Below, in pieces: positions 1,671 to 29,206 of a stretch of DNA of 64,000 bases. Position numbers and translations under genes: made by a program. Positions within the stretch are counted from its first letter, which is position 1. Each line of letters begins with the position of its first letter. Origin of the DNA: Nitrosopumilus sp. (lineage in GTDB: Archaea; Thermoproteota; Nitrososphaeria; Nitrososphaerales; Nitrosopumilaceae). The notes beneath the pieces were generated by a model that searched no databases, had not been told where the DNA came from, and saw only the letters and a list, made by a program, of their open reading frames with translations. The stretch is from the NCBI RefSeq assembly GCF_025699255.1, contig NZ_JAILWA010000002.1, positions 35,985 to 99,984 of the forward strand. Direction: 5' to 3'.

Positions 1671-3401
1671 TCATACGTTATCATATCTACGATATTCCAC
1701 TTTGACATCACTATTTAGATTTGTTAATTCTTGATTCTTTTCTAAGAATGAAATAATATCTTTGATACGAATTAGACGTTTTGCTCCTATTGAATCAAAG
1801 ATTATTCTAGCTAATTGTAGGTCTTCAGGTGTATCAACCGTTAATCTTATTCCTGGCTTTTGCAATTCTTTTGGTGGCATATATGGTAAGATCTTAAACT
1901 TTTTTTGATTTTCATTTATGTATAAAGTACATAACTCACTTCTGTGTTTTTTCAAACCATTCTTGTGTGATATTTCTAATGCCTTTTTATTAATTAATTC
2001 AAATCCACAACCAAGAGGAATTTTTGGAATATAGGTATAATCAAAATTCCCACTAATGTGCTCCTTTATGATATTGTCAATTTTTTCCCAATATAGAAAT
2101 GGATTTTCTGATGTACATCTAAAAACAATATCTGCATTTGTATAATTTGATGCTTTGATTAATCTGCTTAAAACATCTGTTTCATCTCCTATTACAAATT
2201 TTAAATTATTTTCCCTTGCGAACTCTTCAAACACTTGATTTCCATTTTTTTCACTTATTGCGAGTACAATTTCATTAATTAGAGATGATTTTTTAATTTG
2301 TTTTATAATATGTTTTAAAATAGGTTCATTACCTATTTTTTGTAATGGCTTTGCAAATAATCTATCTGAATTAATCCTACATGCAATTACAGCTACAACT
2401 TTAGGAGATTTAATTTCTAAATGTTTGGATGTAATTATTGTTCCTTTTGTAATTTTCTTTGCTGCAATTTTTCCATCTAAATCATAAAAACTTAAAATTT
2501 CTGTAACCTTTGGTGCTCTTTTGATATCAAAATATTGCTCACTAAGAATTTTATATTTTGGAATATCTTTTTTTGCAATTAAAGTTTTTTTATGTAATAA
2601 TCTATACTGTAATTCGTTCCCTAAAATTTCCACAGTTCCATTACCTAATGCCTTATGTGAATTTTTGATTAATTTTACCATTTTTTTAAATTCTATAGGG
2701 TTTAATGCTGAAAAATAATCAATTCCTTTTTCATCTCTATTCAAAGTAATGTGTTTTTCAACAATTGTTGCCCCAAGACTTACTGCTAATAATGGAGCAA
2801 TTAATGCAAATTCTGAATCTCCAGAAACATGATCCATTATGCCAATTTCCATTCTAAATTTATTTTTCAATACAGACAATCGTTTCAAATTTAAATCTTC
2901 AAGTTTAGTTGGATATCCCTGAAATCCATGTAGTAAAGCAATTTCTTTATTTGGAGATGCTAATATTGAAATAATTTTTTCTATTTCAATAATTTTTGAC
3001 CCAGCTGCTGAAATTAAAATATTTTTTTTCTGTTTTGATAAATAATCAATTAGTTTTTTATTTCCTATTTCAGACGAATGAATTTTGAATCCATCAACTT
3101 TAATTTTAACAGCTATTTTTGCACTTTTTAATCCAAATACATCGGCAAATATTTTTAATCCTAGTTTTTTACTAATTTTTGAGATTTTTTGCCACTCTGG
3201 ATTTGAAAATTGGAGCTTTTTGTATAATTTGAAATTTTTATGTTTTGAAGTAGCTAATTCCTCTGCCAAAATAATTTGAAATTTTACTGCATCTGCATTA
3301 GCTTTTTTAGATTCTTTAATGAGTCGAATTGCGTTTTCAATACTACCTTCATGAGAATTCGCAATTTCAGCAATTACAAAACAATTCTTGTTTGAAAACA
3401 A
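1671..3401 (-). CDS. Fusion of NeuB-type nonulosonate synthase, SAF domain and CMP-sugar cytidylyltransferase
   Basis: The 576-residue protein has three parts. Residues 1-265 are a NeuB TIM barrel (IAEIANSHEGS near the start, VEKHITL at 214-220), which condenses PEP with an N-acetyl hexosamine to give a nonulosonic acid. Residues about 270-331 are a SAF (antifreeze-like) domain. Residues 334-560 are a SpsF/NeuA-like cytidylyltransferase (AVIACRINSDRLFAKPL). In most organisms synthase and CMP-activating enzyme are separate genes. The start is TTG, since no upstream ATG fits the NeuB N-terminus. The activating-domain motif has CRINSDRL where classical CMP-sialate synthetases have ARxGSKxx, which suits the SpsF branch. 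The fusion would pass product directly to activation. Confidence 0.88.
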   Translation of the reverse strand: MFSNKNCFVIAEIANSHEGSIENAIRLIKESKKANADAVKFQIILAEELATSKHKNFKLYKKLQFSNPEWQKISKISKKLGLKIFADVFGLKSAKIAVKIKVDGFKIHSSEIGNKKLIDYLSKQKKNILISAAGSKIIEIEKIISILASPNKEIALLHGFQGYPTKLEDLNLKRLSVLKNKFRMEIGIMDHVSGDSEFALIAPLLAVSLGATIVEKHITLNRDEKGIDYFSALNPIEFKKMVKLIKNSHKALGNGTVEILGNELQYRLLHKKTLIAKKDIPKYKILSEQYFDIKRAPKVTEILSFYDLDGKIAAKKITKGTIITSKHLEIKSPKVVAVIACRINSDRLFAKPLQKIGNEPILKHIIKQIKKSSLINEIVLAISEKNGNQVFEEFARENNLKFVIGDETDVLSRLIKASNYTNADIVFRCTSENPFLYWEKIDNIIKEHISGNFDYTYIPKIPLGCGFELINKKALEISHKNGLKKHRSELCTLYINENQKKFKILPYMPPKELQKPGIRLTVDTPEDLQLARIIFDSIGAKRLIRIKDIISFLEKNQELTNLNSDVKVEYRRYDNV

Positions 3402-9241: not shown

Positions 9242-10171
9242 GTGAATCAACATGATGAAGATATTCTAAAGGATTTTCTAAATCTTCATTGGTTAAGACC
9301 TGAAGTTGGCCCTGAGTGTTATTTTAGAAGTAAATCTCTTGATGGAATAGATTTTGAATCTCCCTCTATTGATATTTCCTGTGGTGATGGACAGTTTGCT
9401 TTTGTTCATATGGGAGGTAAATTTCATGAAGATTTTGATAATTTTGGTTCAACTCTTGCAAAAGAATTCAAACATTCTGAATTTGTAGACATTCATGATT
9501 CTTTTGATGAAAACTATGCAGTAAAAATTTTAAAAAATGCTGACAAACAAATTGATTATGGTACCGATTGGAAACAGAATTTACTTAGTAAAGCAGAAAA
9601 GTTAGGTCTATACAAAAATTTGGTGTTACATGATAATAATAAAACTCCTCTTCCATTTAAAGATGATTTTTTTAAAACAATTTACAGTAACTCTGTTTAT
9701 TGGGTAGACCCACCACAACCTCTATTATCTGATATTCACAGAATGCTACATCCTGAAGGAAGAGCAGTTCTTCATTTGTTTACTCCATTTCATCTTGAAA
9801 CTTTAGATGAATTGGAATGTTTTCTTTCAAAAGAAGCAATTGATATTCTAGATAGAAAAAAACGAGAAACTATGAAAGGTTTACGAAAATATAATGAATG
9901 GAAAAAGCTAATTGAAGAAGCAGGATTTAAAATTGAAGAAGTGAAAAATGTTCATCCTGGTAAATTAATTATTGATATGTGGAACATTGGACTAAGACCA
10001 ATTGCTCATTTGCTAATTCAAATGTCTGAATCTTTATCTGATGAACAAAGAAAAAATATCAAAAAAGAATGGGTTGATATATTCTTTAAATTATTTAAAC
10101 CTCTCTTGAACCTTCCTGAAACTTATTCACTAGAAAACTCACCTTATCTGTGTTTTATTCTAAAAAAATAG
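9242..10171 (+). CDS. Class I SAM-dependent methyltransferase
   Basis: A 309-residue protein starting at GTG. The first motif is DISCGDGQFAF, a SAM-binding loop, and a later stretch LPFKDDFFKTIYSNSVYWVDPPQPLLSDIHRML is the usual motif II/III region of class I methyltransferases, with LHPEGRAVLHLF after it. The target is not known. It sits 4 bases before neuB, inside the acid-sugar run, so O- or N-methylation of the glycan is a fair guess. Confidence 0.8.
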   Translation: MNQHDEDILKDFLNLHWLRPEVGPECYFRSKSLDGIDFESPSIDISCGDGQFAFVHMGGKFHEDFDNFGSTLAKEFKHSEFVDIHDSFDENYAVKILKNADKQIDYGTDWKQNLLSKAEKLGLYKNLVLHDNNKTPLPFKDDFFKTIYSNSVYWVDPPQPLLSDIHRMLHPEGRAVLHLFTPFHLETLDELECFLSKEAIDILDRKKRETMKGLRKYNEWKKLIEEAGFKIEEVKNVHPGKLIIDMWNIGLRPIAHLLIQMSESLSDEQRKNIKKEWVDIFFKLFKPLLNLPETYSLENSPYLCFILKK

Positions 10172-10175
10172 TATC

Positions 10176-11207
10176 TTGAAATCTCTAAAAATTTCCAATT
10201 TTCATATTGGTACTAGCTTTCCAGTTTTTATAATTGCAGAAGCTGGAATTAATCATAATGGTTCTTTAACAATAGCTAAAAAAATGGTTGATGTTGCCAA
10301 AAAAGCTGGCGTATCTTGTATTAAATTTCAAACCCATATTGCAGATCAAGAAATGATTAAAACTAATATTCGACCAGGAAAAATTTCAAGAAAAACTCTA
10401 TGGAATATAATCAAAAATTGTGAATTATCTGAAACAGAAGAACTAAAACTTCAAAAATACTGTAAAAAAGAAAAAATTCTATTTTTATCTACCCCCTTTT
10501 CTATTGAGGCTGTTCAAAGACTTGAAAAACTTAGAATTCCTGCTTACAAAATAGGATCTGGGGAACTTACAAATTTACCTTTTCTTGAAACTGTAGCAAA
10601 AACTGGAAAACCAATAATATTATCAACTGGAATGTCAACTATTTCAGAAATTCGATCTGCTGTAAAAATTTTTAAAAAATACAAAAATTTATTTGCATTA
10701 CTCCAAACTACATCTACATACCCTTCAGATTATTCCGAAATTAAATTGGGGATGATTGAAAAATTACAAGATATGTTTGATGTTCCTGTAGGTCTTTCAG
10801 ATCATTCTATTGGAATCTATACTGCTATAGCTAGTGTCGCAAAAGGAGCATCTATAATCGAAAAGCATTTTACTCTAGATAAAAAAATGTCTGGACCAGA
10901 TCAAAAAATTTCTTTGGATCCGTCTGAACTAAATGAATTGGTAATTGGGTGCAACGCAGTAAAACAAGCACTAGGAGATTCGAAATTTATTTTAAAAAAT
11001 GAAAAACCAATACGAAAATTTGCTGAAGCATCAATTGTTACTACAAAAACAATTGAAAAGGGAGAAAAATTTACTTTAGAGAATATAGGCACAAAAAGAC
11101 CCGGAACAGGTGATTTACACGCAAATAAATTCTATGAAATTATAGGTAAAAACGCTAAAAAATCTATTAAACCAAATAAACAATTAACTTGGAAAGATAT
11201 AGTTTGA
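10176..11207 (+). CDS. neuB: NeuB-type nonulosonic acid synthase
   Basis: The 343-residue protein starts with TTG. It contains the NeuB signature IIAEAGINHNGS, KFQTHIADQ, STGMST, GLSDHSIG and IIEKHFTLDK, followed by a C-terminal SAF domain (about 285-343) with IGTKRPGTGD. The reaction is condensation of PEP with ManNAc or its 6-deoxy-2,4-diacetamido analogue. The gene overlaps the following epimerase gene in a TTGA junction. NeuB and NeuC side by side point to a sialic- or legionaminic-type acid, since pseudaminate synthesis does not use NeuC; which one is not decidable from sequence. Confidence 0.92.
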   Translation: MKSLKISNFHIGTSFPVFIIAEAGINHNGSLTIAKKMVDVAKKAGVSCIKFQTHIADQEMIKTNIRPGKISRKTLWNIIKNCELSETEELKLQKYCKKEKILFLSTPFSIEAVQRLEKLRIPAYKIGSGELTNLPFLETVAKTGKPIILSTGMSTISEIRSAVKIFKKYKNLFALLQTTSTYPSDYSEIKLGMIEKLQDMFDVPVGLSDHSIGIYTAIASVAKGASIIEKHFTLDKKMSGPDQKISLDPSELNELVIGCNAVKQALGDSKFILKNEKPIRKFAEASIVTTKTIEKGEKFTLENIGTKRPGTGDLHANKFYEIIGKNAKKSIKPNKQLTWKDIV

Positions 11208-12346
11208 AGAAAAAAATTCTTATTGTTACTGAAAGGCGAGCAGATTATTCAAAATTTCGACCAATTTTAAAAAAAATAACCAAATCGTCCAAACTTGATT
11301 ATTGTCTTGTTGTCACAGGCAGTCATCTTTTGTCAAGTCATGGAAAAACAATTAATGAAATAAAAAATGATGGTTTCAAAATTTCTTATAAATTTTCAAT
11401 GTATCCAAAATATTTTACAGGAACTAATTCGGAAATGGTTGAAAGTTTTGGTCGAGCAATTTTAAAAATAACTGAAATAGTGAAAATAGAAAAACCTAAT
11501 TTAATTTTAGCTGGTTTTGATATAGGTGCAAATTTTGCGGCAGCTATTGTTGGTTCACATATGAATATTCATGTTGCACACATTGAAGGTGGTGATATTA
11601 CTGGTACTATCGATGAATCAATAAGACATGCAACATCAAAATTTTCACATATTCATTTTACATCAAATAAAATTGCCTCAACTAGATTACAAAAAATGGG
11701 AGAAAATAAGAAATTCATTTTTACTGTTGGAAGTACAGGATTAGACAATATTCTTCGAACACAAAAACTAACAATTGAGAATTTGTCTCAAGAATTCAAA
11801 ATTGATTTTTCTTCTCCATTTATAGTAGTTTTACAACACACAGTTACTACAGAAGTTAATAATGTCGATAAAAATTTCTTGAAAACATTAAAAGCAATTT
11901 CTGAATTAAAAATTCAAGCGTTACTTATACATGGAAATGCTGATGCTGGTTCTCAAAAACTTTCTAAATTAATACAAAATTCTTCAATTCAACATATCAA
12001 AACAATTCAAAATAACAAATATGTTAATCTCTTATTTCATGCATCTGCATTAGTTGGAAATTCAAGTAGTGGAATTATTGAAACACCTTTCTTAAAAATT
12101 CCTTCAGTAAATATTGGTACTCGTCAACAAGGAAGATTAAAGTCATTTAGTGTGATTGATGTAAACTATAACAAAAATGAAATAAAAAAAGCCATCAAAA
12201 AGGCTGTTTTTGACAAAAATTTTAAAAATAAAGTAAAAAAATCTACTAGTCTTTATGGAGATGGTAATAGTGCATCAAAAATTGTCAAAATATTGGAAAC
12301 ACTCGATCTATCTAAAATACCTATTCAGAAGACATTATCATATTGA
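11204..12346 (+). CDS. neuC: Hydrolysing UDP-N-acetylglucosamine 2-epimerase (NeuC/LegG-like)
   Basis: The 380-residue protein has the UDP-GlcNAc 2-epimerase fold: VTERRADYSKFRPIL at the N-terminus, HIEGGDITGTIDESIRHATSKFSHIHF in two conserved parts, and GNSSSGIIETP near the C-terminus. The HIEGG(D)xTGxxDExIRHAxSK pattern is that of the hydrolysing NeuC branch, which releases free ManNAc-type sugar for NeuB. The TTG at 11204 is chosen as start because it gives a 4-base TTGA overlap with neuB and places the first strand at residue 2; a TTG at 11189 would add five residues. Confidence 0.9.
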   Translation: MKKKILIVTERRADYSKFRPILKKITKSSKLDYCLVVTGSHLLSSHGKTINEIKNDGFKISYKFSMYPKYFTGTNSEMVESFGRAILKITEIVKIEKPNLILAGFDIGANFAAAIVGSHMNIHVAHIEGGDITGTIDESIRHATSKFSHIHFTSNKIASTRLQKMGENKKFIFTVGSTGLDNILRTQKLTIENLSQEFKIDFSSPFIVVLQHTVTTEVNNVDKNFLKTLKAISELKIQALLIHGNADAGSQKLSKLIQNSSIQHIKTIQNNKYVNLLFHASALVGNSSSGIIETPFLKIPSVNIGTRQQGRLKSFSVIDVNYNKNEIKKAIKKAVFDKNFKNKVKKSTSLYGDGNSASKIVKILETLDLSKIPIQKTLSY

Positions 12347-12354
12347 GATAAAAA

Positions 12355-13671
12355 ATGAAGCCAAACATAATTTTAATTTTAATTGATTCAATGCGGGCAG
12401 ACAAATGCTTTAACAACAAAAATATCCAAACACCAAATATTGATTTATTAATAAAAAAAGGGATTTATTTTAAAAATGGATTTAGCTCTTCTGATTACAC
12501 AATTACTGGATATGGAAGTATCTTTACTGGAAAATACCCAATAAATGCTGGTAAAGATGGAATGAGTTATCATAAAATTTTTTCAGATTCCTCAAATTTC
12601 ATTACAATTTTACAGAATAATGGATATCATACTTTTGCAACAATGGATTCAGGTTTAACTGAAATTGGATTTGATGTAAACTTTGAAAATGAAGATAAAG
12701 GCTATGACCGTACTTCCACTAATCTTCATGAAGGCTTGGATAAACAAATTTTAGACAAGATCAAGTCATTTTCAGAACCATGGTTTTATTTAATCCATTT
12801 AGATGATTTACATATTCCAATTAGAGTTCCTAAAGAATACACTGACAAAAATTATTCTGAACGTTATGATGTGATTGTAGAAAAGATTGATTCTTTTTTA
12901 GGAAAATTGATTGAAACTCTTGATTTAAAAAACACATTGATAATTTTAACATCTGATCATGGTGATTATTTATTATCTGAAGATTTACCTAAACACGAAT
13001 CTTCTTTAAAATCTAAACTTCGATCAAAATTACCTAATTCAACTTACAATTATCTTTCTTCAATAAAACGCGGGACAAAACATAAAATCAAAGAATTTCA
13101 AACACACGATCCTTTAGAAAAACGAACGCTTCAAACAAGAACTGCCAAAGAACGATATTTGTTTGATGATTTAATTCACGTTCCAATTTTATTTTCAGGA
13201 TGTGGTGTTGATTCTATTGGCCCTGTTGATGATCTTGTCAGAAGTGTAGATATTTTTCCTACTTTAATGGATTTATTGAAAATTCCAATCAATCTAAAGG
13301 AAATCGATGGGAAAAGTCTTGTACCAATTTTTAGTGGCAAATCAGTAGACATTTCCACAGTATATCTGGAAAATACTATTTTTGAAACCGATACAAAGAA
13401 TCCTCAAGCAACTGTTGGAATTCGAACATTGAAATACAAATATTTTAGAAGTTTGGAAGATCCTTCTAAAAAAATCCACTTATTCAATTTAGAAGAGGAT
13501 ATTTTGGAAGAAAAAAATATTGCATTAGAAAATTCAAACCTTGTAAGCAAAATGGAATCTGACCTTATGGATTTACGTAACAAACTGCAAAAACGCTTTG
13601 AAAAACCATCCATGAGTGTTGAAGAAACAAAAAAGGTTGAAGATGAACTTAAAAAATTGGGATACGTATAA
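12355..13671 (+). CDS. Alkaline-phosphatase-superfamily protein with Thr nucleophile, candidate phospho/phosphonotransferase
   Basis: The 438-residue protein looks like a sulfatase (LILIDSMRAD with metal ligand D11; TSDHGDYLL; TLMDLLKIP; IDGKSLVPIFSGK). Aligning SIFTGKYP with the sulfatase pattern CxPSRxxLLTGxYP puts T49 in the place of the formylglycine Cys/Ser. Thr nucleophiles are known in phosphodiesterases and in phosphoethanolamine transferases such as EptA, so a true sulfatase is unlikely. No membrane segment or signal peptide is seen, so it would act in the cytoplasm. It starts 8 bases after neuC and lies beside the phosphonate genes; a role in adding or removing a phospho- or phosphono-group on the glycan precursor is inferred. 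Confidence 0.75.
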   Translation: MKPNIILILIDSMRADKCFNNKNIQTPNIDLLIKKGIYFKNGFSSSDYTITGYGSIFTGKYPINAGKDGMSYHKIFSDSSNFITILQNNGYHTFATMDSGLTEIGFDVNFENEDKGYDRTSTNLHEGLDKQILDKIKSFSEPWFYLIHLDDLHIPIRVPKEYTDKNYSERYDVIVEKIDSFLGKLIETLDLKNTLIILTSDHGDYLLSEDLPKHESSLKSKLRSKLPNSTYNYLSSIKRGTKHKIKEFQTHDPLEKRTLQTRTAKERYLFDDLIHVPILFSGCGVDSIGPVDDLVRSVDIFPTLMDLLKIPINLKEIDGKSLVPIFSGKSVDISTVYLENTIFETDTKNPQATVGIRTLKYKYFRSLEDPSKKIHLFNLEEDILEEKNIALENSNLVSKMESDLMDLRNKLQKRFEKPSMSVEETKKVEDELKKLGYV

Positions 13672-13733
13672 CATCTACATATTTTATAAAATAATAAAAT
13701 AATTTTATTAGCTTGGAGTTTTCTGTTCATAAT

Positions 13734-14858
13734 ATGAAAAGAAATCTTATAATTTTGATGATTGATGGAGGACGATTAGATTATTCGTTAAAATCACCTA
13801 CTTTTATATCTATTAAAAAAAATTCAATTTGCCTTTCTCAACCAATCACATATGGTCCACATACAATTGCTGCAATGCATGCGGTTTTCAGTGGTTCTTA
13901 TGGGACTAGAACAGGTACAAACAGCTATTGGTCAACTTATAATTTTAAAAAAAATAAATTCAAAACAATTTCTGAATATCTACATGATGAGAATTATTAT
14001 ACAAAAGCTGATGTTGTAAACGATTTAGTTATTCCAAAACAAGGGTTGGATGAATTTTTAATTCATGATGAATTAAATGATAATCTTACATTAAGACATC
14101 AAAAATTTCTTCAAGAAATGAAAATAAAAAATGATATTGGACAAAATTTCTTTCTTTATTTACAGTATAGTAATATTCATACTGGAATTATGAATGAAGT
14201 TTTAAAAGTTTACAATAATTTTAGTGAAGATTATTTTAACAGTAAAGAAAAAAACAAAGAAAGATATCAATCTCTTTTTGAAAGTGCAGAAAAATATCTA
14301 ACAGAAATTTTAAAAACCATTGATGATTTAGAACTCTCAAAAAATTCTATGATACTAATTATGTCCGATCATGGGATTAGTATTGGCGAAAAAATTGGTG
14401 AAAGAGCATATGGAGCTTTTTGTTATGATTATACATTGAGAACATTTGCATATTTTCTGACGCCTGATTTGCCAAATTTAGAAATTAGTCAACAAGTGAG
14501 AACTATTGATTTCATGCCTACCATTCTAGATTACTTTGGAATTTCTTTAGATCTAAATTATGAAAAAATTGATGGCGAATCACTTTTGCCATTATTTGGA
14601 GGAAAATCCCTTCCAGAAAAAATTGCTTTTTCTGAAACAGGAAATCCACTTCAAGATACAAAACCTCCTAAAGAACCAAATATAAAATCTGTAAGAACTT
14701 CAGAGTGGAAATTAATATTTAATGAATATAATGAAACCAGAGAATTATATGATTTGGTTCATGATCCACATGAAACAAACAATCTTTCAGGAAATAACTT
14801 AGAAATTGAAACCGTTTTATTTGAAAAACTTCAAATTTTAAGTGATGGAAAAATTTAA
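13734..14858 (+). CDS. Second alkaline-phosphatase-superfamily protein with Thr nucleophile
   Basis: A 374-residue relative of the preceding protein: LIILMIDGGRLD (metal ligand D11), GPHTIAAMHAVFSGSYG, MSDHGISIGEK, IDFMPTILDYFGI and the sulfatase-like C-terminus ELYDLVHDPHETNNL. Aligning to sulfatases places T44 at the nucleophile position, again Thr and not Cys/Ser. The ATG at 13734 is used; an upstream TTG at 13713 would add seven residues before the first strand and is less likely. Its stop overlaps the convergent nucleotidyltransferase by 4 bases. It most likely acts on phosphate or phosphonate esters. Confidence 0.75.
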   Translation: MKRNLIILMIDGGRLDYSLKSPTFISIKKNSICLSQPITYGPHTIAAMHAVFSGSYGTRTGTNSYWSTYNFKKNKFKTISEYLHDENYYTKADVVNDLVIPKQGLDEFLIHDELNDNLTLRHQKFLQEMKIKNDIGQNFFLYLQYSNIHTGIMNEVLKVYNNFSEDYFNSKEKNKERYQSLFESAEKYLTEILKTIDDLELSKNSMILIMSDHGISIGEKIGERAYGAFCYDYTLRTFAYFLTPDLPNLEISQQVRTIDFMPTILDYFGISLDLNYEKIDGESLLPLFGGKSLPEKIAFSETGNPLQDTKPPKEPNIKSVRTSEWKLIFNEYNETRELYDLVHDPHETNNLSGNNLEIETVLFEKLQILSDGKI

Positions 14859-15601
14859 CTAAATAACTTTCTAGCTTTTTCTAAATCTTGAGGAGTATCA
14901 ATTTCACACCAATTTCCTTCTATGAAAATTGGCTTAACATCAATGTTCAAATCAATTAATTCTTGAAGCATGTCTGTAAGATATGCTTTCTTGAATGATG
15001 GTGCATTATGAAATTTTCCTACATGATTTTTTTGAATTTTCATAAATGTATCTACAAATAACTTTGAACCTTTTTCTGAAAGAATCATTGGACCTAAAAA
15101 TTCTCCAATTACATCTTCATCATTTGTTTTTTCTATATTTTTTTTAATTTTAATGATTTTATCATTTCTTATTAACACATTATCAGCTTCAGATTTAGGA
15201 TGTTGAGTTCTACCTTCATAGGATTTTTCCCAATTAAGATCTATTGGAATTCCTATATCTCCAGAAAAACTTAGTATCTCTTTTAATATTGATTCTTCAA
15301 ACAGAATGTCTGAATATGATGTTAAAATCTTACCCTCAATTTTGTCCTTTGCAGCCATTAAGCTACCCAAAACATCATGTTCTGCATAATTATCATCATT
15401 AAGATATAAGATATTTTCAATTCCAAAATTTTTGTGTGGTCCTGTAATTATGATAATTTCATTAATTTGATTTTTTTTAAATAGTGAAATTTGTCTCTCT
15501 AAAATTGTTTTTCCGTTAATATCTAACAATCCCTTTGGAGTTGTTTTAGTAATATCTCCTAATCTACTTGCATAACCGGCTGCAATAATAATTACTCTCA
15601 T
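14855..15601 (-). CDS. LicC/PntC-like nucleotidyltransferase, candidate phosphonate cytidylyltransferase
   Basis: The 248-residue protein has the nucleotidyltransferase start IIIAAGYASRLG followed by TPKGLLDINGKTILERQI, and a C-terminal EIDTPQDLEKA. The best family match is the phosphocholine cytidylyltransferase branch (LicC), which includes 2-aminoethylphosphonate cytidylyltransferase (PntC/MpnC type) in phosphonate clusters. It is the last gene of a minus-strand operon with PEP mutase and phosphonopyruvate decarboxylase, 6 bases after the decarboxylase. It should activate a phosphonate with CTP; which phosphonate is inferred below. Confidence 0.85.
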   Translation of the reverse strand: MRVIIIAAGYASRLGDITKTTPKGLLDINGKTILERQISLFKKNQINEIIIITGPHKNFGIENILYLNDDNYAEHDVLGSLMAAKDKIEGKILTSYSDILFEESILKEILSFSGDIGIPIDLNWEKSYEGRTQHPKSEADNVLIRNDKIIKIKKNIEKTNDEDVIGEFLGPMILSEKGSKLFVDTFMKIQKNHVGKFHNAPSFKKAYLTDMLQELIDLNIDVKPIFIEGNWCEIDTPQDLEKARKLFS

Positions 15602-15607
15602 TTTATT

Positions 15608-16156
15608 CTAAATTGCTTTCATGAACCTTTTTTTAATTTCTGTTGGTTTGTACATTACTCTAGAACTAACAATTTTACTTGGTTGAATTTTAATCAAAAT
15701 CATTATTGGCGATTTGATTTTTAATTTTTTATTTAATATTTCAATTAATTTTTCTTTTGAACTTGTTTTATATACTGTATATCCACAAGCTTTAGCGATT
15801 TTTTCAATTTTTATTGTTGATGTGTGTGTGGGTTGTCCTCCAGTTGATTCATGTATTGAATTGTCAAAAATTACATGGATTAAATTTTTTGGAGACATTT
15901 TTCCAATGGTGGTTAATGAACCTAAATTCATTAAGATATTACCATCTCCATCAAATACGTAGATCTTTTTTTTAGATCTTGTCAAAGCAATTCCTAAACC
16001 AATTGATGATGCAAGCCCCATTGAACCTATCATATAGAAATTAGATTTCTTTTCACATGTATCATATAGATCTCTGCTAATGAATCCATTTGCAGAAACA
16101 ATTGGATTGTTTTTACAAAACTTTCCAATGATTTCAATTGCTTCTTTTCTAATCAT
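15608..16156 (-). CDS. Phosphonopyruvate decarboxylase, C-terminal (TPP-binding) subunit
   Basis: This 182-residue protein is the PP domain of a thiamine-diphosphate enzyme. It carries GSMGLASSIGLGIAL and the TPP motif GDG at 70-72 with the paired N at 99 (IFDNSIHESTGGQPTHT follows). The last stretch is typical of phosphonopyruvate and sulfopyruvate decarboxylases. It overlaps the Pyr-domain gene by 8 bases. Neighbouring PEP mutase makes phosphonopyruvate the natural substrate, giving phosphonoacetaldehyde and CO2. Sulfopyruvate decarboxylase (ComE) is the alternative. Confidence 0.88.
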   Translation of the reverse strand: MIRKEAIEIIGKFCKNNPIVSANGFISRDLYDTCEKKSNFYMIGSMGLASSIGLGIALTRSKKKIYVFDGDGNILMNLGSLTTIGKMSPKNLIHVIFDNSIHESTGGQPTHTSTIKIEKIAKACGYTVYKTSSKEKLIEILNKKLKIKSPIMILIKIQPSKIVSSRVMYKPTEIKKRFMKAI

Positions 16157-16637
16157 GAAATTCCCTTTTAATTATTAAGACACATGGATTTTCAGATTTT
16201 ATTTGTGATTTTGCCCATTTGCATGATTCTTTCCAATTTGACTCAGTAAGAATTCTTGATTTCAATTTTAAACTTTTAATCAATTCTGGCTGAATTTTTC
16301 CTAGTTTTGTATGCTCTGGGGCATCGGTTGGAAGGTAGCCTCTCCATCCGATAAGAAAAATTATTGGAATCTTATACAATTGTACTAGTGAAGTTATAGT
16401 ACTTATTGAATTTCCAAAACCTGCATTTTGCATAAAAACTAGCGATTGGCTCTTAACTAAAGACATACCTGTGGCAATTCCTATAGCCTCTTCTTCTCTA
16501 GTTGTTATAATTATCTCATTTTTTTCAAGTCCTTGGTTGATAAAATGTTTCATAGTAGAATCTGGGACTCCTACAAAATTCTTTATTCCAATTTTCTTCA
16601 AAAATTTAAACATTGATCTTTGTGATTTTTCATTCAT
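16149..16637 (-). CDS. Phosphonopyruvate decarboxylase, N-terminal (Pyr) subunit
   Basis: This 162-residue protein is the Pyr domain of the split enzyme. It has FVGVPDSTMKHF at the start and TREEEAIGIATGMSL at 46-60, which includes the glutamate that activates TPP. MQNAGFGNSISTITSL and LIGWRGYLPTDAPEH follow, both shared with phosphonopyruvate decarboxylase. It overlaps PEP mutase by 4 bases upstream and the PP subunit by 8 bases downstream, so the three are made together. In most phosphonate producers this enzyme is one chain of about 380 residues. Confidence 0.88.
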   Translation of the reverse strand: MNEKSQRSMFKFLKKIGIKNFVGVPDSTMKHFINQGLEKNEIIITTREEEAIGIATGMSLVKSQSLVFMQNAGFGNSISTITSLVQLYKIPIIFLIGWRGYLPTDAPEHTKLGKIQPELIKSLKLKSRILTESNWKESCKWAKSQIKSENPCVLIIKREFHD

Positions 16638-17542
16638 TTTACATATCCAAGTTTTTTAAGATTTTCTTCAATTTCTTTTTCCTGTTTTTTAATATTGTAC
16701 ATTTCTTGCAACTGAAAAATCTCTTCCATAGATGACATTTCTTGTTCCACTTTGGATAAGCTATTTGTTTTCGAAATATCTTCCAAAAGTTTTGACATCG
16801 CTAAATATGAAACACGAAGAGTATGATTTGCATATATTACCATTTTGAAATTATTTGAAATCAATTCATCAGTTGTTACATTAGGATATGATGTTGGGAT
16901 TGAAATTAAGGGAATATTTCCTTCCCATTTTTTACTAAACTCAAAAATTTCTTGTGGTGTGTTCTTTTTTGAATGAATGAGAATAGCATCAGCACCAGCT
17001 TTTTCATATGCAGTTGCACGTTTTATTGCTTCATCTATTCCTAAACCTGCAATTAAAGCCTCTACTCTAGCAATAATCATAAAATCATTCGAAATTTTTG
17101 CATCCTTTCCTGCAATGATTTTTGCAACAAAATCCTTTTCCGGTAAAAGTTCTTGAGTTCCATCTTCTAATAAGCTATTTTGTTTTGGAAATACTTTATC
17201 TTCGATGCTAACAGCTGCAATTCCTGCTTTTTCATATTTTTTTACCATGTGACCAACATTACTAGGTCCACCAAAACCCGTATCACAATCTGCAATAATG
17301 GGAATATTACATGATTCAGCCATATTGGATGCAGCATGTAAAAATTCTGTCATCGTTAGAATGCTTGCATCAGGAAGTGCATGAGTGGCGGAAATGGCAA
17401 AGCTTCCAGCCCAAACTGCATCAAAACCATGAATTTCTACTAGTTTGGCAGACATGGCGTCAAATGCGCCTCCTACTTTAACAATGGATTGTTCTGCTAA
17501 TTTTTTTCTTAAACTATTAGAACTAGAATTCATTTTAGTCAC
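16634..17542 (-). CDS. pepM: Phosphoenolpyruvate phosphomutase (PepM)
   Basis: The 302-residue protein has the PEP mutase signature EDKxxxxxNS as EDKVFPKQNS at 114-123, together with GAFDAMSAKL, the metal-binding DCDTGFGG at 85-92 and ARVEALIAG. These separate it from isocitrate lyase and methylisocitrate lyase. It isomerises PEP to phosphonopyruvate, making the C-P bond; this is the entry step of nearly all phosphonate synthesis. It is the first gene of the minus-strand operon and diverges from the dehydrogenase gene over only 47 bases. The C-terminal 40 residues are rich in Glu and Lys and likely helical. Confidence 0.95.
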   Translation of the reverse strand: MTKMNSSSNSLRKKLAEQSIVKVGGAFDAMSAKLVEIHGFDAVWAGSFAISATHALPDASILTMTEFLHAASNMAESCNIPIIADCDTGFGGPSNVGHMVKKYEKAGIAAVSIEDKVFPKQNSLLEDGTQELLPEKDFVAKIIAGKDAKISNDFMIIARVEALIAGLGIDEAIKRATAYEKAGADAILIHSKKNTPQEIFEFSKKWEGNIPLISIPTSYPNVTTDELISNNFKMVIYANHTLRVSYLAMSKLLEDISKTNSLSKVEQEMSSMEEIFQLQEMYNIKKQEKEIEENLKKLGYVK

Positions 17543-17589
17543 AATGAAACTAGTTTTTTAGCTTATAATAATAGATTGTTAAAAAAATT

Positions 17590-18549
17590 ATGATAATGTT
17601 TACTATTAAACAGCCTCCAAAGATTATTTTTGGCAAAAACTCTGTAAGAAATTTCTCTTTTCCTTTAGATAGTTTGGTTATTACCAGTAAAGGTGCTAAA
17701 TCCCGAGGATGGCTAGAATATTTAGCATTAAATGATTTTTTACTTTTTGAAGATGTTGAACCTAATCCATCAATTGAGACCACTGAAAAAATTATTTCAA
17801 AATTTAGAAATGACTCTTTTTCTACAATAATTGGTGTTGGTGGAGGAAGCACTTTAGATGTAGCAAAATTTGTTGCCGCAAAATTAAACAAATCTAAAAT
17901 TTTAATTCCAACAACATTTGGAAGTGGTAGTGAAGTTACTAGAATTTCAGTTTTAAAGGTAAATGGAAAAAAACAAAGCTTTCATGATGATAAACTATTT
18001 GCTGATATTTCAATCGTTGATAGTAATTTCATTACCAATACACCTTTGAATATTATAAAAAATTCAGCAATTGATGCTTGTGCACAATGTACAGAAGCTT
18101 ATGATAGTAAAATTGCAAATCAATACACAAAATTTCTTTGTGAACATGCTTTCAATTGTTTAGAAAGTGCAATTCTTTCTGAAAATTTTGAACTTTTACC
18201 ATATGGTTCTCTAATTACGGGGTTAGGCTTTGGAAATAGTTCTACTACATTAGGACATGCATTATCATATGTTTATTCTAATGAAGGGTATTCTCATGGG
18301 CATGCTTTATCTTATACAACTTCAGTTGCCCACAAATTCAACAATTCAAAATTTTATGATCGCTTTAAAACTATTGTAAAAAAATTAAATTTTGAACCTA
18401 TACATCTTGATGAAAATTATGATATTGCATCAGAATTAATTTTAAAGGATAAAAAACATTTAGATAATAATCCTAAATTTATTTCAAAAGATAAGATAAT
18501 TGAGTTATTACATCTACTAAATTCAAAACAATTCTATGACACTTTTTAA
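17590..18549 (+). CDS. Iron-type alcohol dehydrogenase, candidate phosphonoacetaldehyde reductase
   Basis: The 319-residue protein belongs to the iron-containing alcohol dehydrogenases: GVGGGSTLDVAKF (NAD(P) binding), PTTFGSGSEVT, and metal ligands in SAIDACAQ, LGHALSY and SHGHAL. Next to PEP mutase and phosphonopyruvate decarboxylase, its expected substrate is phosphonoacetaldehyde, reduced to 2-hydroxyethylphosphonate; related enzymes do this in other phosphonate pathways. No PhnW-type aminotransferase is present, so the hydroxy form is favoured over aminoethylphosphonate. The protein is shorter than the usual 380 residues, mainly in the C-terminal helical domain. It diverges from pepM. Confidence 0.88.
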   Translation: MIMFTIKQPPKIIFGKNSVRNFSFPLDSLVITSKGAKSRGWLEYLALNDFLLFEDVEPNPSIETTEKIISKFRNDSFSTIIGVGGGSTLDVAKFVAAKLNKSKILIPTTFGSGSEVTRISVLKVNGKKQSFHDDKLFADISIVDSNFITNTPLNIIKNSAIDACAQCTEAYDSKIANQYTKFLCEHAFNCLESAILSENFELLPYGSLITGLGFGNSSTTLGHALSYVYSNEGYSHGHALSYTTSVAHKFNNSKFYDRFKTIVKKLNFEPIHLDENYDIASELILKDKKHLDNNPKFISKDKIIELLHLLNSKQFYDTF

Positions 18550-18637: not shown

Positions 18638-20401
18638 TTGAAAAAGAGAATTAAATTGAAGACAAATAATGTTACTAATCAAACATTTTTTTTATCTAAA
18701 GTTTCTTTATGCAAGATTTTAATTATTGGATTTTTTGGTTTTTATTTAATTTCTAATTTTGCCCCTTATTATGATACAGCAGATGGATATACTTTGGCGA
18801 CAATTGGGATCAAACTTTCTCAAGGTCAATATGCAATTACAAATGAATTATTAGAAAATACTGGAAAATTTGAATTCAAACCTGGTGATTGGGCAAATAC
18901 TATTGATCCTTCTTATGCAGTTCCCTTAGGACCAATAGGGTTTCATTTATGGGCATCATTTCTTTATTCTCTAACAGGAAATTTTGGTTTGTTTTATTTT
19001 GGTCCAATTTCTGGAATTCTTTTACTAATTGTTTCAGAACGTGTATCTACCAAATTATTTGGAAAATATGTTGGTCTTTTAGCAATTTTATTTTTAGTCA
19101 CAAATCATATTTTCCTTCGTTCGGCAGTTTCTTTTCAAACTGAAAGTTCAGCTACAATTCTTTTTTTGTTGGGTTTCTACTTTTTAATAAAATTCATAAA
19201 GAATTTATCTAACCTTTCAATTTTTCTAACTTCATTATTTTTATCGGTAGCAACTTTTGTTAGAATTAATAATATAATTTTTTTCCCCGTAGAATTAATT
19301 TTCTTATTTTCATATTTTATTTTTGAACATTTAAGGACAAAAAATAATAAAAAATCACTTTATCAAAAATCATTTTCGAAATCTGCTTTCAAAAAGTCTG
19401 CTTTACTTCTAATACCTTGGATTATTTTCTTTTCATTTTGGTTTGGATATCATGATTTCTTTTTTGGTGATCCATTTACAACTCAAATCATAATTCAGCG
19501 TGGTGAAGGAACAACTGATAAAGAAATTTCATCCTTTTTTGAACTTGAGTCTAGGCATTTTGAAAACATCAAACAATATTCAAAATATCTTTTACCATAT
19601 CAATTTCCCGCTATGGAATCGTCATTATTTCAAAATTTTGATCCTCTTTTTGGAAAATTCTGGCTTGGAATAATTTCAATATTGATTTTACTTTCTGGTA
19701 TAATAATTTCATTAAAAACACAAGATCATAGAAAAGAAATTTTTGTAATATGTTTTTTCATTCTTTCTACGGTTTGGTTTTATTCAGCTTTAACTTCAGA
19801 AGATAGAGCATCTTATGGAGTACCTGGTAGATACATGTTTCCTGCATTTATTTTATTTTATATGATAATTGGATTTTTAATTACCAAAATTTTTTCTATT
19901 GATAAAAAAAGAATTCCAATATTTGGATTAAAAATAATTAAAATTTTTGTAATTATTTGTTTGATTATATTTTTTGGAAGTTCAATTTACTTTACTCCAT
20001 TTGGTCAAGCAATCTTCAACGGAACTTTTGAAATCCAAAATCCATTTGAATTATCTTTAAATCATCCTCCTGATTTGGAAGGATTAAAAAAAAATAATGT
20101 GATTGTAGCCCTAAAAACTGATAGAATTTTAGAATATGATGTAATTCCTTTCCAGATAGTACCTATAGATGATAAAATTGCCCCTCCTGATTCCATTTCT
20201 TTATTAAAAAATATCTTAAGTGAAGATTATTCTGTTTTCATATTCAAAACCCCTACTACTATCCATGAAAAGATTGTTTTCCAAGATTTAGCTGATAATC
20301 ATGAAATAATTTTTAGTGATTTTTCTAAATCATTTTGTATTCTTTCTATTAAAAATAATGAAAATACTATTACACAAAATGATCAAATATGCCTAGAATA
20401 A
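18638..20401 (+). CDS. Polytopic GT-C family membrane protein (ArnT/PMT-like)
   Basis: A 587-residue protein with about 11 hydrophobic segments. The first extracytoplasmic loop has YYDTADGYTLATIG and a second DPSYAVPLGPIGFHLW, matching the GT-C glycosyltransferase pattern with an acidic residue after the first helix. The C-terminal 140 residues are a soluble domain. Such enzymes move a sugar from a polyprenyl phosphate carrier to a lipid or protein outside the membrane. The start is a TTG at 18638. It follows the dehydrogenase by 88 bases. Confidence 0.7.
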   Translation: MKKRIKLKTNNVTNQTFFLSKVSLCKILIIGFFGFYLISNFAPYYDTADGYTLATIGIKLSQGQYAITNELLENTGKFEFKPGDWANTIDPSYAVPLGPIGFHLWASFLYSLTGNFGLFYFGPISGILLLIVSERVSTKLFGKYVGLLAILFLVTNHIFLRSAVSFQTESSATILFLLGFYFLIKFIKNLSNLSIFLTSLFLSVATFVRINNIIFFPVELIFLFSYFIFEHLRTKNNKKSLYQKSFSKSAFKKSALLLIPWIIFFSFWFGYHDFFFGDPFTTQIIIQRGEGTTDKEISSFFELESRHFENIKQYSKYLLPYQFPAMESSLFQNFDPLFGKFWLGIISILILLSGIIISLKTQDHRKEIFVICFFILSTVWFYSALTSEDRASYGVPGRYMFPAFILFYMIIGFLITKIFSIDKKRIPIFGLKIIKIFVIICLIIFFGSSIYFTPFGQAIFNGTFEIQNPFELSLNHPPDLEGLKKNNVIVALKTDRILEYDVIPFQIVPIDDKIAPPDSISLLKNILSEDYSVFIFKTPTTIHEKIVFQDLADNHEIIFSDFSKSFCILSIKNNENTITQNDQICLE

Positions 20402-26997: not shown

Positions 26998-28017
26998 TTA
27001 ACCCAATGTGGATCTTTTCTTAATAAAATCTATGGATGGAATGGGAGATGGATCAATTTTTTGAATTATTGCGTAATATATCGATGTATAGTCTAAAAGA
27101 TAAATTAAATTAATTACTTTAGTTATTATGCTACCTTCCTCTGAGAAAATTTCTTTGTATTCTATTCCATTTGAATTAAAATATTCTTTTAAAATTCTCC
27201 ATCTTTCCTTTGTTTTTTCATAATCATCTTTTCCTTGTAACAAAATTGGATTAACATTGGATGATTTTTCCCATGAAACTATTCCATTATGACATGCCTC
27301 TACTACATCTTCAGCAATTACATGGGTTTTCCCGTTTTCTTGCAATGAATTTTTAAAGCGAATTGCAGATGCTTGTAATCCCCATGGATAATAAATCAAT
27401 GGAATTCCATTGATCCACTCTGCTAAATCTAATGAAGGATTATCTTTAGAAAGATTTGAAGAAGAGATTTTTTCTCTTAATTCAAATAGTTTTTCAATAG
27501 ATTCTTGAATATCAGTTTCATTAATTGGCAAAATGGGTTTAAGAATTTTTAACATTCCATACAAATAGGCTGTGAAAGAAGCTCTTGGAGAATGAAACTG
27601 AGGAATAATTTTATGGGAAATATTATTTGATTTACAATATTTTTCCATTATTCCATCAGAAGAAAAAGCAACAACATTAGTATCAATTTTTTTTGCTGCT
27701 TCTAAAACTGTAAGAGTTTCAGATGTATTTCCTGAAACACTTGTTGTAACTACTAATGTGTTGGAATCAACTGTTTTAGGCAGATGATATCCCTTAACAA
27801 CTGAGACATGTTTATCTGTTTTTGATAATATTGAATAAAAAATATCTCCTATTGCACCAGAACCTCCCATTCCTGCAAAAATAATATTATCAATATTTTC
27901 AAATTCTATACTATTTTCATCTAATTCATATGCCTCTTTAGCGATTTCTGGCCACTTGTCATAAATTTTATACATTCCTTTAGAATCTACTTCATCTAAA
28001 TTTTCTTTAGAAATCAT
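26998..28017 (-). CDS. Bifunctional phosphoglucose/phosphomannose isomerase
   Basis: The 339-residue protein has the SIS-domain motif FAGMGGSGAIGD, TTSVSGNTSETL, and the C-terminal stretch characteristic of archaeal PGI/PMI (RFKNSLQENGKTHV, VEACHNGIVSWE). It interconverts glucose-6-P, mannose-6-P and fructose-6-P, so it feeds hexosamine and mannose sugars to the island as well as gluconeogenesis. It diverges from mtnA over 64 bases. Confidence 0.9.
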   Translation of the reverse strand: MISKENLDEVDSKGMYKIYDKWPEIAKEAYELDENSIEFENIDNIIFAGMGGSGAIGDIFYSILSKTDKHVSVVKGYHLPKTVDSNTLVVTTSVSGNTSETLTVLEAAKKIDTNVVAFSSDGIMEKYCKSNNISHKIIPQFHSPRASFTAYLYGMLKILKPILPINETDIQESIEKLFELREKISSSNLSKDNPSLDLAEWINGIPLIYYPWGLQASAIRFKNSLQENGKTHVIAEDVVEACHNGIVSWEKSSNVNPILLQGKDDYEKTKERWRILKEYFNSNGIEYKEIFSEEGSIITKVINLIYLLDYTSIYYAIIQKIDPSPIPSIDFIKKRSTLG

Positions 28018-28081
28018 CTATTTACAGGAATAATTTTTAAAATATATGTCTGATGAATTAAATCCCGAAGATTGATTTAAA

Positions 28082-29170
28082 ATGAACATCTGTAAAATAT
28101 GTTTATTGACGAATCAGAATATTGGCATAGATTCATCGTTACGAACAGTAGAATGGAAAAATAACAAAGTTAGAATGATTGATCAAACTAAATTACCAAA
28201 TGAATTGGTTATTGTAGAATTTGATGATTTTAATCAAGTGGCTGATGCTATATCTACATTGGTTGTTAGAGGTGCACCTGCAATTGGTGTATCTGGTGCA
28301 TTTGGTCTAGCATTAGCAGTATTACAAAGTAATGCTACCACTAAAGATGAATTAATATCATATTTAGAAAACGCAAAAAAAATTCTATTTGCTACTAGAC
28401 CTACTGCAGTAAACTTAGGTTGGGGATTAGAAAAAATAATGAATATTGCAAAAACTGGAGATTCTGTTGAACAAATTAGAGAACTAGTAATTTCTACTGC
28501 TAAAAAAATGGCAGATGAAGATATTGAAATTAACAAAGCTATGGGTAAGAATGGTTCAATTCTTTTTGACAATAATGACACCATAATGACTCATTGTAAT
28601 GCAGGAGCATTAGCAACTGTTGCATATGGAACCGCATTAGGTGTAATCAGAGCAACTAGAGAAAGTGGAAAAAATGTAAAAGTAATAGCAACTGAAACAA
28701 GACCTATTCAACAAGGTTCACGATTAACAGCATTTGAATTGAAACATGATGGATTCGATGTCAGTTTAGTGCCAGACACTGCAGTAGGATATTCAATGGC
28801 AAATGGTTTAGTGAATAAGGTAGTAGTTGGTGCAGATAGAATTGTAAAGACTGGTCATGTTTTTAATAAAATTGGAACTTATCAAGTAGCAACAATGGCT
28901 AAACAACATGGAATTCCATTTTATGTTGCAGCCCCATTATCGACCATTGATTTAGAGACAAAGGCTGAAGATGTAATCATTGAAATGCGTAAAGGGACTG
29001 AAGTAACTGGTATTGGTGAAAAAAAGACAGCTCCTGATGATATTGGTGTAATTAATCCTGCATTTGATATGACTCCTCCAGAATTAATTTCAGGGATAAT
29101 TACTGAAAAAGGTGTGGCTAAATTTCCCTACGAAGAATCAATACCAAAATTATTTGAAGCTAATAATTAG
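28082..29170 (+). CDS. mtnA: S-methyl-5-thioribose-1-phosphate isomerase
   Basis: The 362-residue protein carries the MtnA/eIF2B-like motifs RGAPAIGVSGAFGLAL, ATRPTAVNLGW, MTHCNAGALATVAYGTAL (active Cys), ETRPIQQGSRLTAFEL and GADRIVKTGHVFNKIGTY. It isomerises methylthioribose-1-phosphate to the ribulose form in methionine salvage; archaeal relatives can act on ribose-1,5-bisphosphate. The family usually begins just before RTVEW, so the first 15-20 residues may be non-coding and the start may be an internal TTG near 28106. Confidence 0.9.
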   Translation: MNICKICLLTNQNIGIDSSLRTVEWKNNKVRMIDQTKLPNELVIVEFDDFNQVADAISTLVVRGAPAIGVSGAFGLALAVLQSNATTKDELISYLENAKKILFATRPTAVNLGWGLEKIMNIAKTGDSVEQIRELVISTAKKMADEDIEINKAMGKNGSILFDNNDTIMTHCNAGALATVAYGTALGVIRATRESGKNVKVIATETRPIQQGSRLTAFELKHDGFDVSLVPDTAVGYSMANGLVNKVVVGADRIVKTGHVFNKIGTYQVATMAKQHGIPFYVAAPLSTIDLETKAEDVIIEMRKGTEVTGIGEKKTAPDDIGVINPAFDMTPPELISGIITEKGVAKFPYEESIPKLFEANN

Positions 29171-29206
29171 AAAGTTTTTATTGTTTTTCAAACTGCCATT
29201 TACAAT

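Follow-up and report, generated by a model that had tools for sequence, protein, structure and literature searches.

A 64,000-nucleotide stretch of a Nitrosopumilus sp. genome (hereafter the window) carries at 12355-18549 a phosphonate cassette without a gene for methylphosphonate synthase (MpnS). Judging from its sequence, this open, MpnS-less cassette is predicted to make CMP-2-hydroxyethylphosphonate (2-hydroxyethylphosphonate (HEP) activated with cytidine monophosphate (CMP)), and a sulfatase-fold protein, SulfB, likely hands the phosphonate to a surface glycan. We put the probability of this reading at about 0.53. In the predicted scheme, PepM would convert phosphoenolpyruvate (PEP) to phosphonopyruvate, PpdA and PpdB together would decarboxylate it to phosphonoacetaldehyde, an Fe-type alcohol dehydrogenase (Fe-ADH) would reduce this to HEP, and the nucleotidyltransferase NTP would join HEP to CMP. 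In SulfB, Asp18, Asp219 and His220 would bind a metal while Thr51 attacks the phosphonate group of CMP-HEP, and SulfB would pass this group to a sugar hydroxyl of a surface glycan, for whose assembly the neighbouring nonulosonic-acid and glycosyltransferase-like genes would provide. We infer every reaction of the scheme, and likewise HEP as the headgroup, transfer and not hydrolysis as the action of SulfB, and the glycan as acceptor.

From left to right the genes are SulfA(+), SulfB(+), NTP(-), PpdB(-), PpdA(-), PepM(-) and ADH(+), and the cassette consists of the following features.

12355..13671, plus strand: SulfA, a second sulfatase-family protein, with Thr49
13672..13712, no strand: the "MpnS slot", 41 nucleotides (nt) separating SulfA and SulfB, the position of mpnS in N. 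maritimus (locus L033) and several relatives
13713..14858, plus strand: SulfB, a sulfatase-fold protein with Asp18-Thr51-Asp219-His220, predicted phosphonyltransferase
14855..15601, minus strand: NTP, a PntC/LicC-type cytidylyltransferase with Ala11-Gly24-Val77, predicted to make CMP-HEP
15608..16156, minus strand: PpdB, the thiamine pyrophosphate-binding half of phosphonopyruvate decarboxylase, with GDGN
16149..16637, minus strand: PpdA, the N-terminal half of the split phosphonopyruvate decarboxylase, with REEEA
16634..17542, minus strand: PepM, phosphoenolpyruvate mutase (PEP to phosphonopyruvate), a role inferred from its family
17590..18549, plus strand: Fe-type alcohol dehydrogenase, predicted phosphonoacetaldehyde reductase giving HEP

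Each of the seven genes has an open frame, and PepM and the decarboxylase retain their active-site motifs; a pseudogene reading of the cassette was rejected on these grounds. An earlier, sequence-only reading of the window had placed a PEP mutase, a split decarboxylase, an Fe-ADH and a LicC/PntC-like cytidylyltransferase together, and this cluster is confirmed at 12355-18549. PepM has the PEP mutase active-site motif EDK(X)5NS (PMC8931226), which is present in all 16 aligned loci, the window included; its family score is 301.4 bits, with a cut-off of 319.55. REEEA is kept in the window's PpdA in the alignment, and GDGN is found in 15 of 15 PpdB rows. TIGR03297 is the best model for both PpdA (195.5 bits) and PpdB (105.9 bits), each below the 312.5-bit cut-off of a model that spans both halves as one protein, and sulfopyruvate decarboxylase models score close behind it. 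The Fe-ADH reaches 86.4 bits to the phosphonate-linked model TIGR03405 (cut-off 423.7); it is assigned as a phosphonoacetaldehyde reductase because its cassette context is common with N. maritimus. This short Fe-ADH has Gln at one metal-ligand position in 15 of 15 aligned rows, N. maritimus included, a position where we take His to be the usual ligand. Outside the window, at G000:C2:172715-173428, the genome encodes a second protein of the PEP-mutase/isocitrate-lyase superfamily, 28% identical to PepM; it has counterparts in most of 200 family genomes and is therefore probably a housekeeping protein.

For comparison, the surroundings of PepM were taken from 15 relatives, up to 20 kb from each, and seven further loci were added later. 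In seven of the 15 relatives a gene for a protein of 453-463 amino acids (aa) adjoins SulfB. All seven proteins align over their full length; that of L039 matches methylphosphonate synthase with 678.6 bits, and that of L033 has the same sequence as PDB 6b9s. A profile built from these seven proteins has no match at E<=10 in the window's own genome, which is 1.65 Mb in 20 contigs and 99.5% complete, so the lack of MpnS previously noted in the window holds genome-wide at this threshold. As a control, the same profile recovered nine of 200 family genomes at E<=3.3e-219 and a tenth, G164, at 18 bits only. MpnS was also not found by it in G074 (99% complete) or G238 (96%), both of which have the same cassette layout. 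In L033 the order is SulfA, MpnS, SulfB, NTP; in the window the gap between SulfA and SulfB is 41 nt, or 62 nt if SulfB begins at the ATG that fits its relatives, and the slot is likewise empty in L035, L037, L080 and L081 (15 to 52 nt). PepM occurs at E<=1e-60 in 22 of 250 family genomes, of which ten have a full-length MpnS, one (G224) a remnant of about 50 residues and 11 none. Ten of the 22 reach 90% completeness with no more than 5% contamination, and five of these are without MpnS (the window's own genome, G074, G221, G238 and G093, the last carrying a B12-radical SAM protein instead). MpnS-less cassettes are thus an ordinary part of this family.

Other loci hold different genes in place of mpnS. 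At L042:13167-13940 the slot that elsewhere holds MpnS, with SulfB and SulfA on its two sides, is occupied by a PhyH-family protein; the best NCBIfam model of this protein is methylphosphonate hydroxylase (152.5 bits, cut-off 500), and a PhyH profile has no match in the window's own genome. Phosphonate cassettes with a B12-binding radical SAM (rSAM) protein of about 690 aa and a Nudix protein are found at L040:3557-6955, L044:12239-14868, L046:675-3295, L070:10378-12000 and L083:12715-16208. The best NCBIfam match of the L046 protein is the KedN5 type, with the PhpK type weaker and both below cut-off; the rSAM proteins of these cassettes could C- or P-methylate the phosphonate. L084:7014-10173 is a decaying cassette with a remnant of the MpnS C-terminus adjoining SulfB, a broken PepM and an NTP still of the MpnS type.

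Model comparison places the fold of the NTP nearest to PntC, and with its glycine-rich loop, PK motif and EID motif the protein can be assigned to the PntC/LicC cytidylyltransferase fold with the nucleotide motif kept. PMC6697681 locates Glu104 and Glu196 of PntC close to the amine of aminoethylphosphonate. Glu104 aligns surely with Tyr96 of the NTP, and Glu196 aligns with Ala200 at low alignment confidence; every one of 120 public NTP relatives has Tyr or Phe at position 96, and none has an acid at position 200. As far as the alignment goes, at least one of the two amine-contacting acids of PntC is absent from the NTP.

The NTP also carries residues that go with the type of cassette. In 16 NTP rows from 15 loci, eight columns (11, 24, 26, 61, 77, 94, 114 and 237) distinguish the seven MpnS rows from the four without MpnS, among which the PhyH locus is counted. 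Columns 11, 24, 77, 94 and 237 were carried to the seven new loci, and 26, 61 and 114 were not followed. The three-column signature 11-24-77 was fixed only after the new loci had been viewed, column 94 having failed in L080 and L081 and column 237 in L082. In these three columns the new loci without MpnS read Ala-Gly-Val (L080) and Ser-Gly-Val (L081), and L079, with MpnS, reads Gly-Tyr-Ile. The two NTPs of the rSAM locus L083 are Gly-Pro-Gln and Gly-Ser-Ile; the L084 NTP is Gly-Ser-Ile without an MpnS frame nearby, its genome keeping the MpnS remnant next to SulfB. Columns 11 and 77 held wherever the locus type could be judged. Position 24 is Ser or Tyr in nine of ten MpnS loci; where MpnS-less NTPs have Gly24, PntC, which binds a two-carbon headgroup, also has Gly. 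The three columns co-vary in the 120 best public NTP relatives, 67 of which, our own protein included, are of the full MpnS-less type by NTP residues alone; 34 are Gly-Tyr/Ser-Ile/Gln, six are Gly-Pro-Gln and 13 are others. The signature may tell cassette types apart from sequence alone.

Tree tests suggest that the NTP and SulfB form a headgroup module that tracks MpnS status, unlike the genes of the C-P core. Loci were labelled by their tailoring gene (MpnS, none, PhyH or rSAM), and label changes on each tree were counted and compared with those for shuffled labels. On the tree of the concatenated core (PepM, PpdA, PpdB and ADH; 21 rows) the MpnS label changes seven times, against a shuffled mean of 6.8 (362 of 500 shuffles as low), and a single clade uniting the five MpnS-less loci is rejected (p-AU, the p-value of the approximately unbiased test, 6e-47). 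On the NTP tree (25 rows) the MpnS label changes four times (1/500 as low) and the MpnS-less label three times (22/500); for SulfB (19 rows) the corresponding counts are four (21/500) and two (2/500). For SulfB the test does not reject a clade of the MpnS-less loci, either with the five alone (p-AU 0.619) or with the PhyH locus added (0.178); for NTP it does not reject the five together with the PhyH locus (0.385). In neither of the two best trees do the MpnS-less loci form a single clade; they did so, with support 94/92, in a previous 17-row NTP tree. We also compared the genes over common loci, with 14 to 16 rows per gene, all labels together and 200 shuffles. Here NTP requires three changes, the minimum possible (0/200 as low), and SulfB four (1/200), followed by PpdA with five (8/200), PpdB with six (37/200), PepM with six (92/200), SulfA with six (137/200) and ADH with seven (126/200). 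The NTPs of most rSAM loci group together despite their rearranged genes. Mere loss of mpnS would leave an NTP built for methylphosphonate, and the NTP and SulfB trees suggest otherwise: in MpnS-less cassettes the NTP tends to belong to a type of its own. Together with the missing amine-contact acid of PntC, this tendency supports, as a prediction, the route from PEP through phosphonopyruvate, phosphonoacetaldehyde and HEP to a CMP-phosphonate that had been proposed from the letters of the window, and the route fits every gene of the cassette.

Some loci received special treatment in these trees. L047, which has PepM but no decarboxylase, NTP or ADH within 20 kb, was left out of the core, NTP and SulfB trees and kept in the PepM tree. 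L078, whose contig ends inside the NTP, was left out of the 25-row NTP tree, and L056, L057, L066, the L040 SulfB (in two frames) and the SulfB halves of L067 were left out of the SulfB trees. L046 was labelled rSAM although its genome also has MpnS on another contig. L084, with its MpnS remnant, had its own label in the larger trees; in the comparison over common loci it was labelled MpnS but is not one of those loci.

SulfB is a protein of 381 aa with its first core strand at residue 11 and no signal or membrane part seen by eye. Its residues are numbered from the TTG at 13713; relatives suggest an ATG start at 13734. Fold comparison gives the SulfB model a type I sulfatase fold. Type I (formylglycine) sulfatases carry a CxPxR (or SxPxR) maturation motif. 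SulfB is without CxPxR and reads T-I-A-A-M, with Thr in 241 of 241 rows, and the possibility that it is a classical sulfatase was rejected because the maturation motif is absent. The active set of the LtaS/EptA-type Thr phosphotransferases, which are membrane-anchored and lie outside the cell, is acid-Thr-Asp-His, and SulfB has this set in Asp18, Thr51, Asp219 and His220. Thr51, Asp219 and His220 are kept in 241 of 241 rows and Asp18 in 240. There is no LtaS or EptA chain among the 50 Foldseek matches listed for SulfB, which says nothing either way. SulfA reads T-I-T-G-Y, with Thr or Ser at the nucleophile position in 21 of 21 rows and xPxR in none. It does not track headgroup type in the tree test, and it may follow the acceptor, perhaps as an acceptor-specific partner. 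Of the two transferase-like neighbours described in the sequence-only reading, both turn out to be sulfatase-fold proteins (SulfA and SulfB), and it is for SulfB that we argue a transferase role.

Among 398 genomes of the phylum, 11 match SulfB at E<=1e-60, and all 11 belong to the same family. An NTP gene is at most 100 nt away in 26 of 32 full-length SulfB-family open reading frames (ORFs), loci without PepM included; among the others, one is at a contig end and L043 has its NTP 1.4 kb away in a PepM cassette. Because of length limits, the two-frame SulfB of L040 and the SulfB halves of L067 are not among the 32. In the bacterial pathway the transferase is LicD, which has no match in the window's own genome at E<=1 and was found in four of 14 control genomes.

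Six loci without PepM (L060, L061, L063, L064, L065 and L069) combine a SulfB homologue with an NTP, a glutamine amidotransferase and a protein of about 800 aa. The best NCBIfam model of the amidotransferase is gamma-glutamyl-CDP-amidate hydrolase in all six (118 to 127 bits, cut-off 250). The 800-aa protein is glutamine-kinase-like: it scores above the NF004508 cut-off in all six, and Pfam PPDK_N and PEP-utilisers domains were found in both copies scanned. We take Cj1418 of Campylobacter to be a member of NF004508. By these family matches, the six SulfB loci of ammonia-oxidising archaea look like phosphoramidate cassettes, one of which lies in N. maritimus itself:

L065:5148-10187 (C1:595000-614900): putative phosphoramidate cassette with glutamine-kinase-like, gamma-glutamyl-CDP-amidate-hydrolase-like, NTP and SulfB-homologue genes

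According to PMC11800397, four Campylobacter enzymes make cytidine diphosphate (CDP)-phosphoramidate 3'-phosphate from glutamine, ATP and CTP. Among the matches listed in our literature search there is no paper that describes phosphoramidate genes in these archaea. SulfB homologues also stand beside ATP sulfurylase at L058:7605-10438 and L059:503-2795, L058 having in addition a 190-aa protein without a Pfam match, and the phosphonate region of L045 includes an adenylyl-sulfate kinase.

Several observations weigh against an HEP cassette with SulfB as its transferase. Both decarboxylase halves and the Fe-ADH fall below the curated phosphonate cut-offs, and the closest folds to SulfB are hydrolases. 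The NTP signature is imperfect and its test was not clean, columns 94 and 237 having been dropped after they failed; L082, with MpnS, reads Gly-Gly-Met, so that column 24 fails there; and LicC, whose substrate phosphocholine is larger, carries Ala at position 24, out of line with a simple size rule. The L078 NTP reads Gly11-Ala24-Ile77 with no MpnS match in a 97% complete genome, and the contig ends inside this NTP, so L078 is either a miss of the signature or not judgeable. The best larger NTP tree puts the window apart from L035, L080 and L081 and from L037 and L042, and two NTPs of MpnS loci (L036 and L043) group with those of rSAM loci. Two of the 26 NTPs next to SulfB (L059 and L062) are fragments at contig ends, and for four of the 32 ORFs (in L056, L058, L059 (second copy) and L066) there is no NTP gene in the 5 kb around SulfB. 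Finally, SulfB, NTP and MpnS are neighbours, so block recombination alone could make SulfB and NTP follow MpnS. The two genes would then hold no headgroup information and track MpnS status only through linkage to mpnS, with which they would recombine as one block. The order SulfA-MpnS-SulfB-NTP in several loci fits this explanation, as does the weak signal of PpdA (8/200), which lies two genes from NTP. However, SulfA, which borders mpnS in several loci on its other side, and PpdB, which borders NTP, are equally close and do not follow MpnS status, and the NTPs of most rSAM loci cluster though their genes are rearranged. Linkage alone is thus not an easy explanation, and we regard it as unlikely, though linkage may contribute to the pattern. 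We likewise doubt, without dismissing it, that CMP-HEP and an HEP glycan are made while SulfA and SulfB act as trimming or recycling esterases (of phosphonate, phosphate or sulfate) and another protein, for example an unrecognised glycosyltransferase-like enzyme in the island, carries out the transfer. SulfB has Thr51 throughout and no formylglycine motif, it follows the headgroup module and stays beside a nucleotidyltransferase even without PepM, which fits the use of an activated donor better, and LicD was not found. Most SulfB contexts share a nucleotide-activated phosphorus or sulfur headgroup, so a transferase fits better than an esterase.

The headgroup itself might differ from HEP. A 2-aminoethylphosphonate (AEP) made by an unlinked transaminase, with an NTP that makes CMP-AEP like bacterial PntC, would agree with the PntC-like fold and with a class V aminotransferase in the window's own genome. 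This protein is the best match of the genome to the PhnW model, at 200.6 bits against a cut-off of 360.8, so that PhnW remains unrecognised in the genome search as it had been in the window. Such an aminotransferase occurs in 17 of 21 genomes searched (own genome included) and never scores above the cut-off, controls included, and it therefore looks like a housekeeping enzyme. Since Glu104 of PntC is Tyr96 here and Glu196 probably Ala200 (at low alignment confidence), and the cassette holds a predicted phosphonoacetaldehyde reductase and no transaminase, we hold AEP to be less likely and altogether improbable. Only a small chance, too, is given to a tailored product, methylphosphonate or some other, that would come from an enzyme of a kind different from MpnS, HEPD and PhyH or from further methylation of HEP by the methyltransferase at 9242-10171. 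Relatives do use different tailoring enzymes, namely MpnS, a PhyH-family protein (L042) and B12-radical SAM proteins (L040, L044, L045/L070, L046 and L083), but the slot is empty in the window and in L035, L037, L080 and L081, and neither PhyH nor MpnS has a match in the window's own genome, where an rSAM protein was not sought genome-wide.

The predicted HEP cassette resembles several known systems. The methylphosphonate cluster of N. maritimus SCM1 (L033) shares with the cassette the order and the strands of PepM, PpdA, PpdB, NTP, ADH, SulfA and SulfB, at 37-72% identity; it differs in that the window lacks mpnS and its NTP has Ala11, Gly24 and Val77 where that of L033 has Gly, Ser and Ile. 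The phosphonoglycans of Glycomyces and Stackebrandtia (credited to Yu et al. 2014) reportedly carry HEP on a glycan; the HEP ester is the same as that predicted in the window, but these are actinomycetes, and the likeness concerns the product only and not the gene sets. With the PntC/LicC cytidylyltransferases (PMC6697681) the NTP shares the fold, the glycine-rich loop, the PK motif and the EID motif; unlike PntC it has Tyr96 for Glu104 and probably Ala200 for Glu196, and its partner gene is SulfB, LicD not having been found. The Campylobacter O-methyl phosphoramidate pathway Cj1415-Cj1418 (PMC3907429 and PMC11800397) follows the same logic of a nucleotide-activated phosphorus headgroup placed onto a surface glycan, and a similar kinase, hydrolase and NTP set is present in the PepM-less SulfB loci. 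Its headgroup is P-N where that of the window is C-P, and the likeness concerns Cj1415-Cj1418 and not the published transferases Cj1421 and Cj1422. From the type I sulfatases and phosphonate monoester hydrolase of the alkaline phosphatase superfamily SulfB differs by Thr51 in place of the CxPxR Cys and by its short chain of 381 aa.

Archaeal methylphosphonate clusters and bacterial CMP-phosphonates are already known. Arylsulfatase A genes are mentioned in archaeal phosphonate neighbourhoods in PMC9381506, whose excerpt makes no transferase proposal, and among the matches listed in our literature searches none gives archaeal sulfatase-type proteins a role in phosphonate transfer. As far as we searched, three things are new: an archaeal cassette type that lacks MpnS and has an NTP and a SulfB of its own, the signature in the NTP, and a candidate transferase, SulfB, common to phosphonate and phosphoramidate-like cassettes. 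According to PMC9381506, marine high-molecular-weight organic matter contains methylphosphonate and hydroxyethylphosphonate esters on polysaccharides, methylphosphonate breakdown yields methane, and in the mesopelagic pepM rises to 45% of the community but mpnS to no more than 7.7%, archaea being important in deep water. On these figures, many deep producers must make a product other than methylphosphonate, for which the cassette offers HEP as a likely candidate; SulfB, labelled an arylsulfatase in databases, is a testable candidate for the archaeal transfer step. More tentatively, and with the odds somewhat against it, SulfB may be the founder of a new transferase class, a soluble member of the alkaline-phosphatase superfamily whose Thr nucleophile would move a tetrahedral headgroup from a nucleotide mixed anhydride to a glycan. 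In this proposal NTP and SulfB would be a swappable module that in Nitrosopumilaceae serves CMP-phosphonates in PepM cassettes, CDP-phosphoramidate in the glutamine-kinase cassettes and perhaps adenylyl sulfate at the two ATP-sulfurylase loci, and MpnS-less cassettes would be a source of the HEP esters of the deep ocean.

The cassette is flanked on both sides by predicted glycan genes.

10176..12346, plus strand: NeuB-like synthase and NeuC (UDP-GlcNAc 2-epimerase), NeuC above cut-off and NeuB slightly below
18638..20401, plus strand: 587-aa glycosyltransferase-like protein adjoining the cassette, with a PMT_2 match below cut-off

The nonulosonic-acid genes directly upstream of SulfA are a sign of a surface-glycan locus. 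The G+C content per 2 kb is 0.25-0.28 in the first 28 kb of the window (0.31 at 16-18 kb) and 0.31-0.40 in the remainder. The low-GC stretch (window 1-28000) is rich in glycan genes and ends at conserved genes at 26998-29845. The cassette adjoins the same anchor genes (26998-29845) in several relatives, for example L033-L039, L078 and L079, which points to a hotspot of glycan cassettes at this site. Near the start of the island, at 1671-3401 of the window, a single open frame combines a NeuB-type synthase, a SAF domain and a CTP_transf_3 cytidylyltransferase domain.

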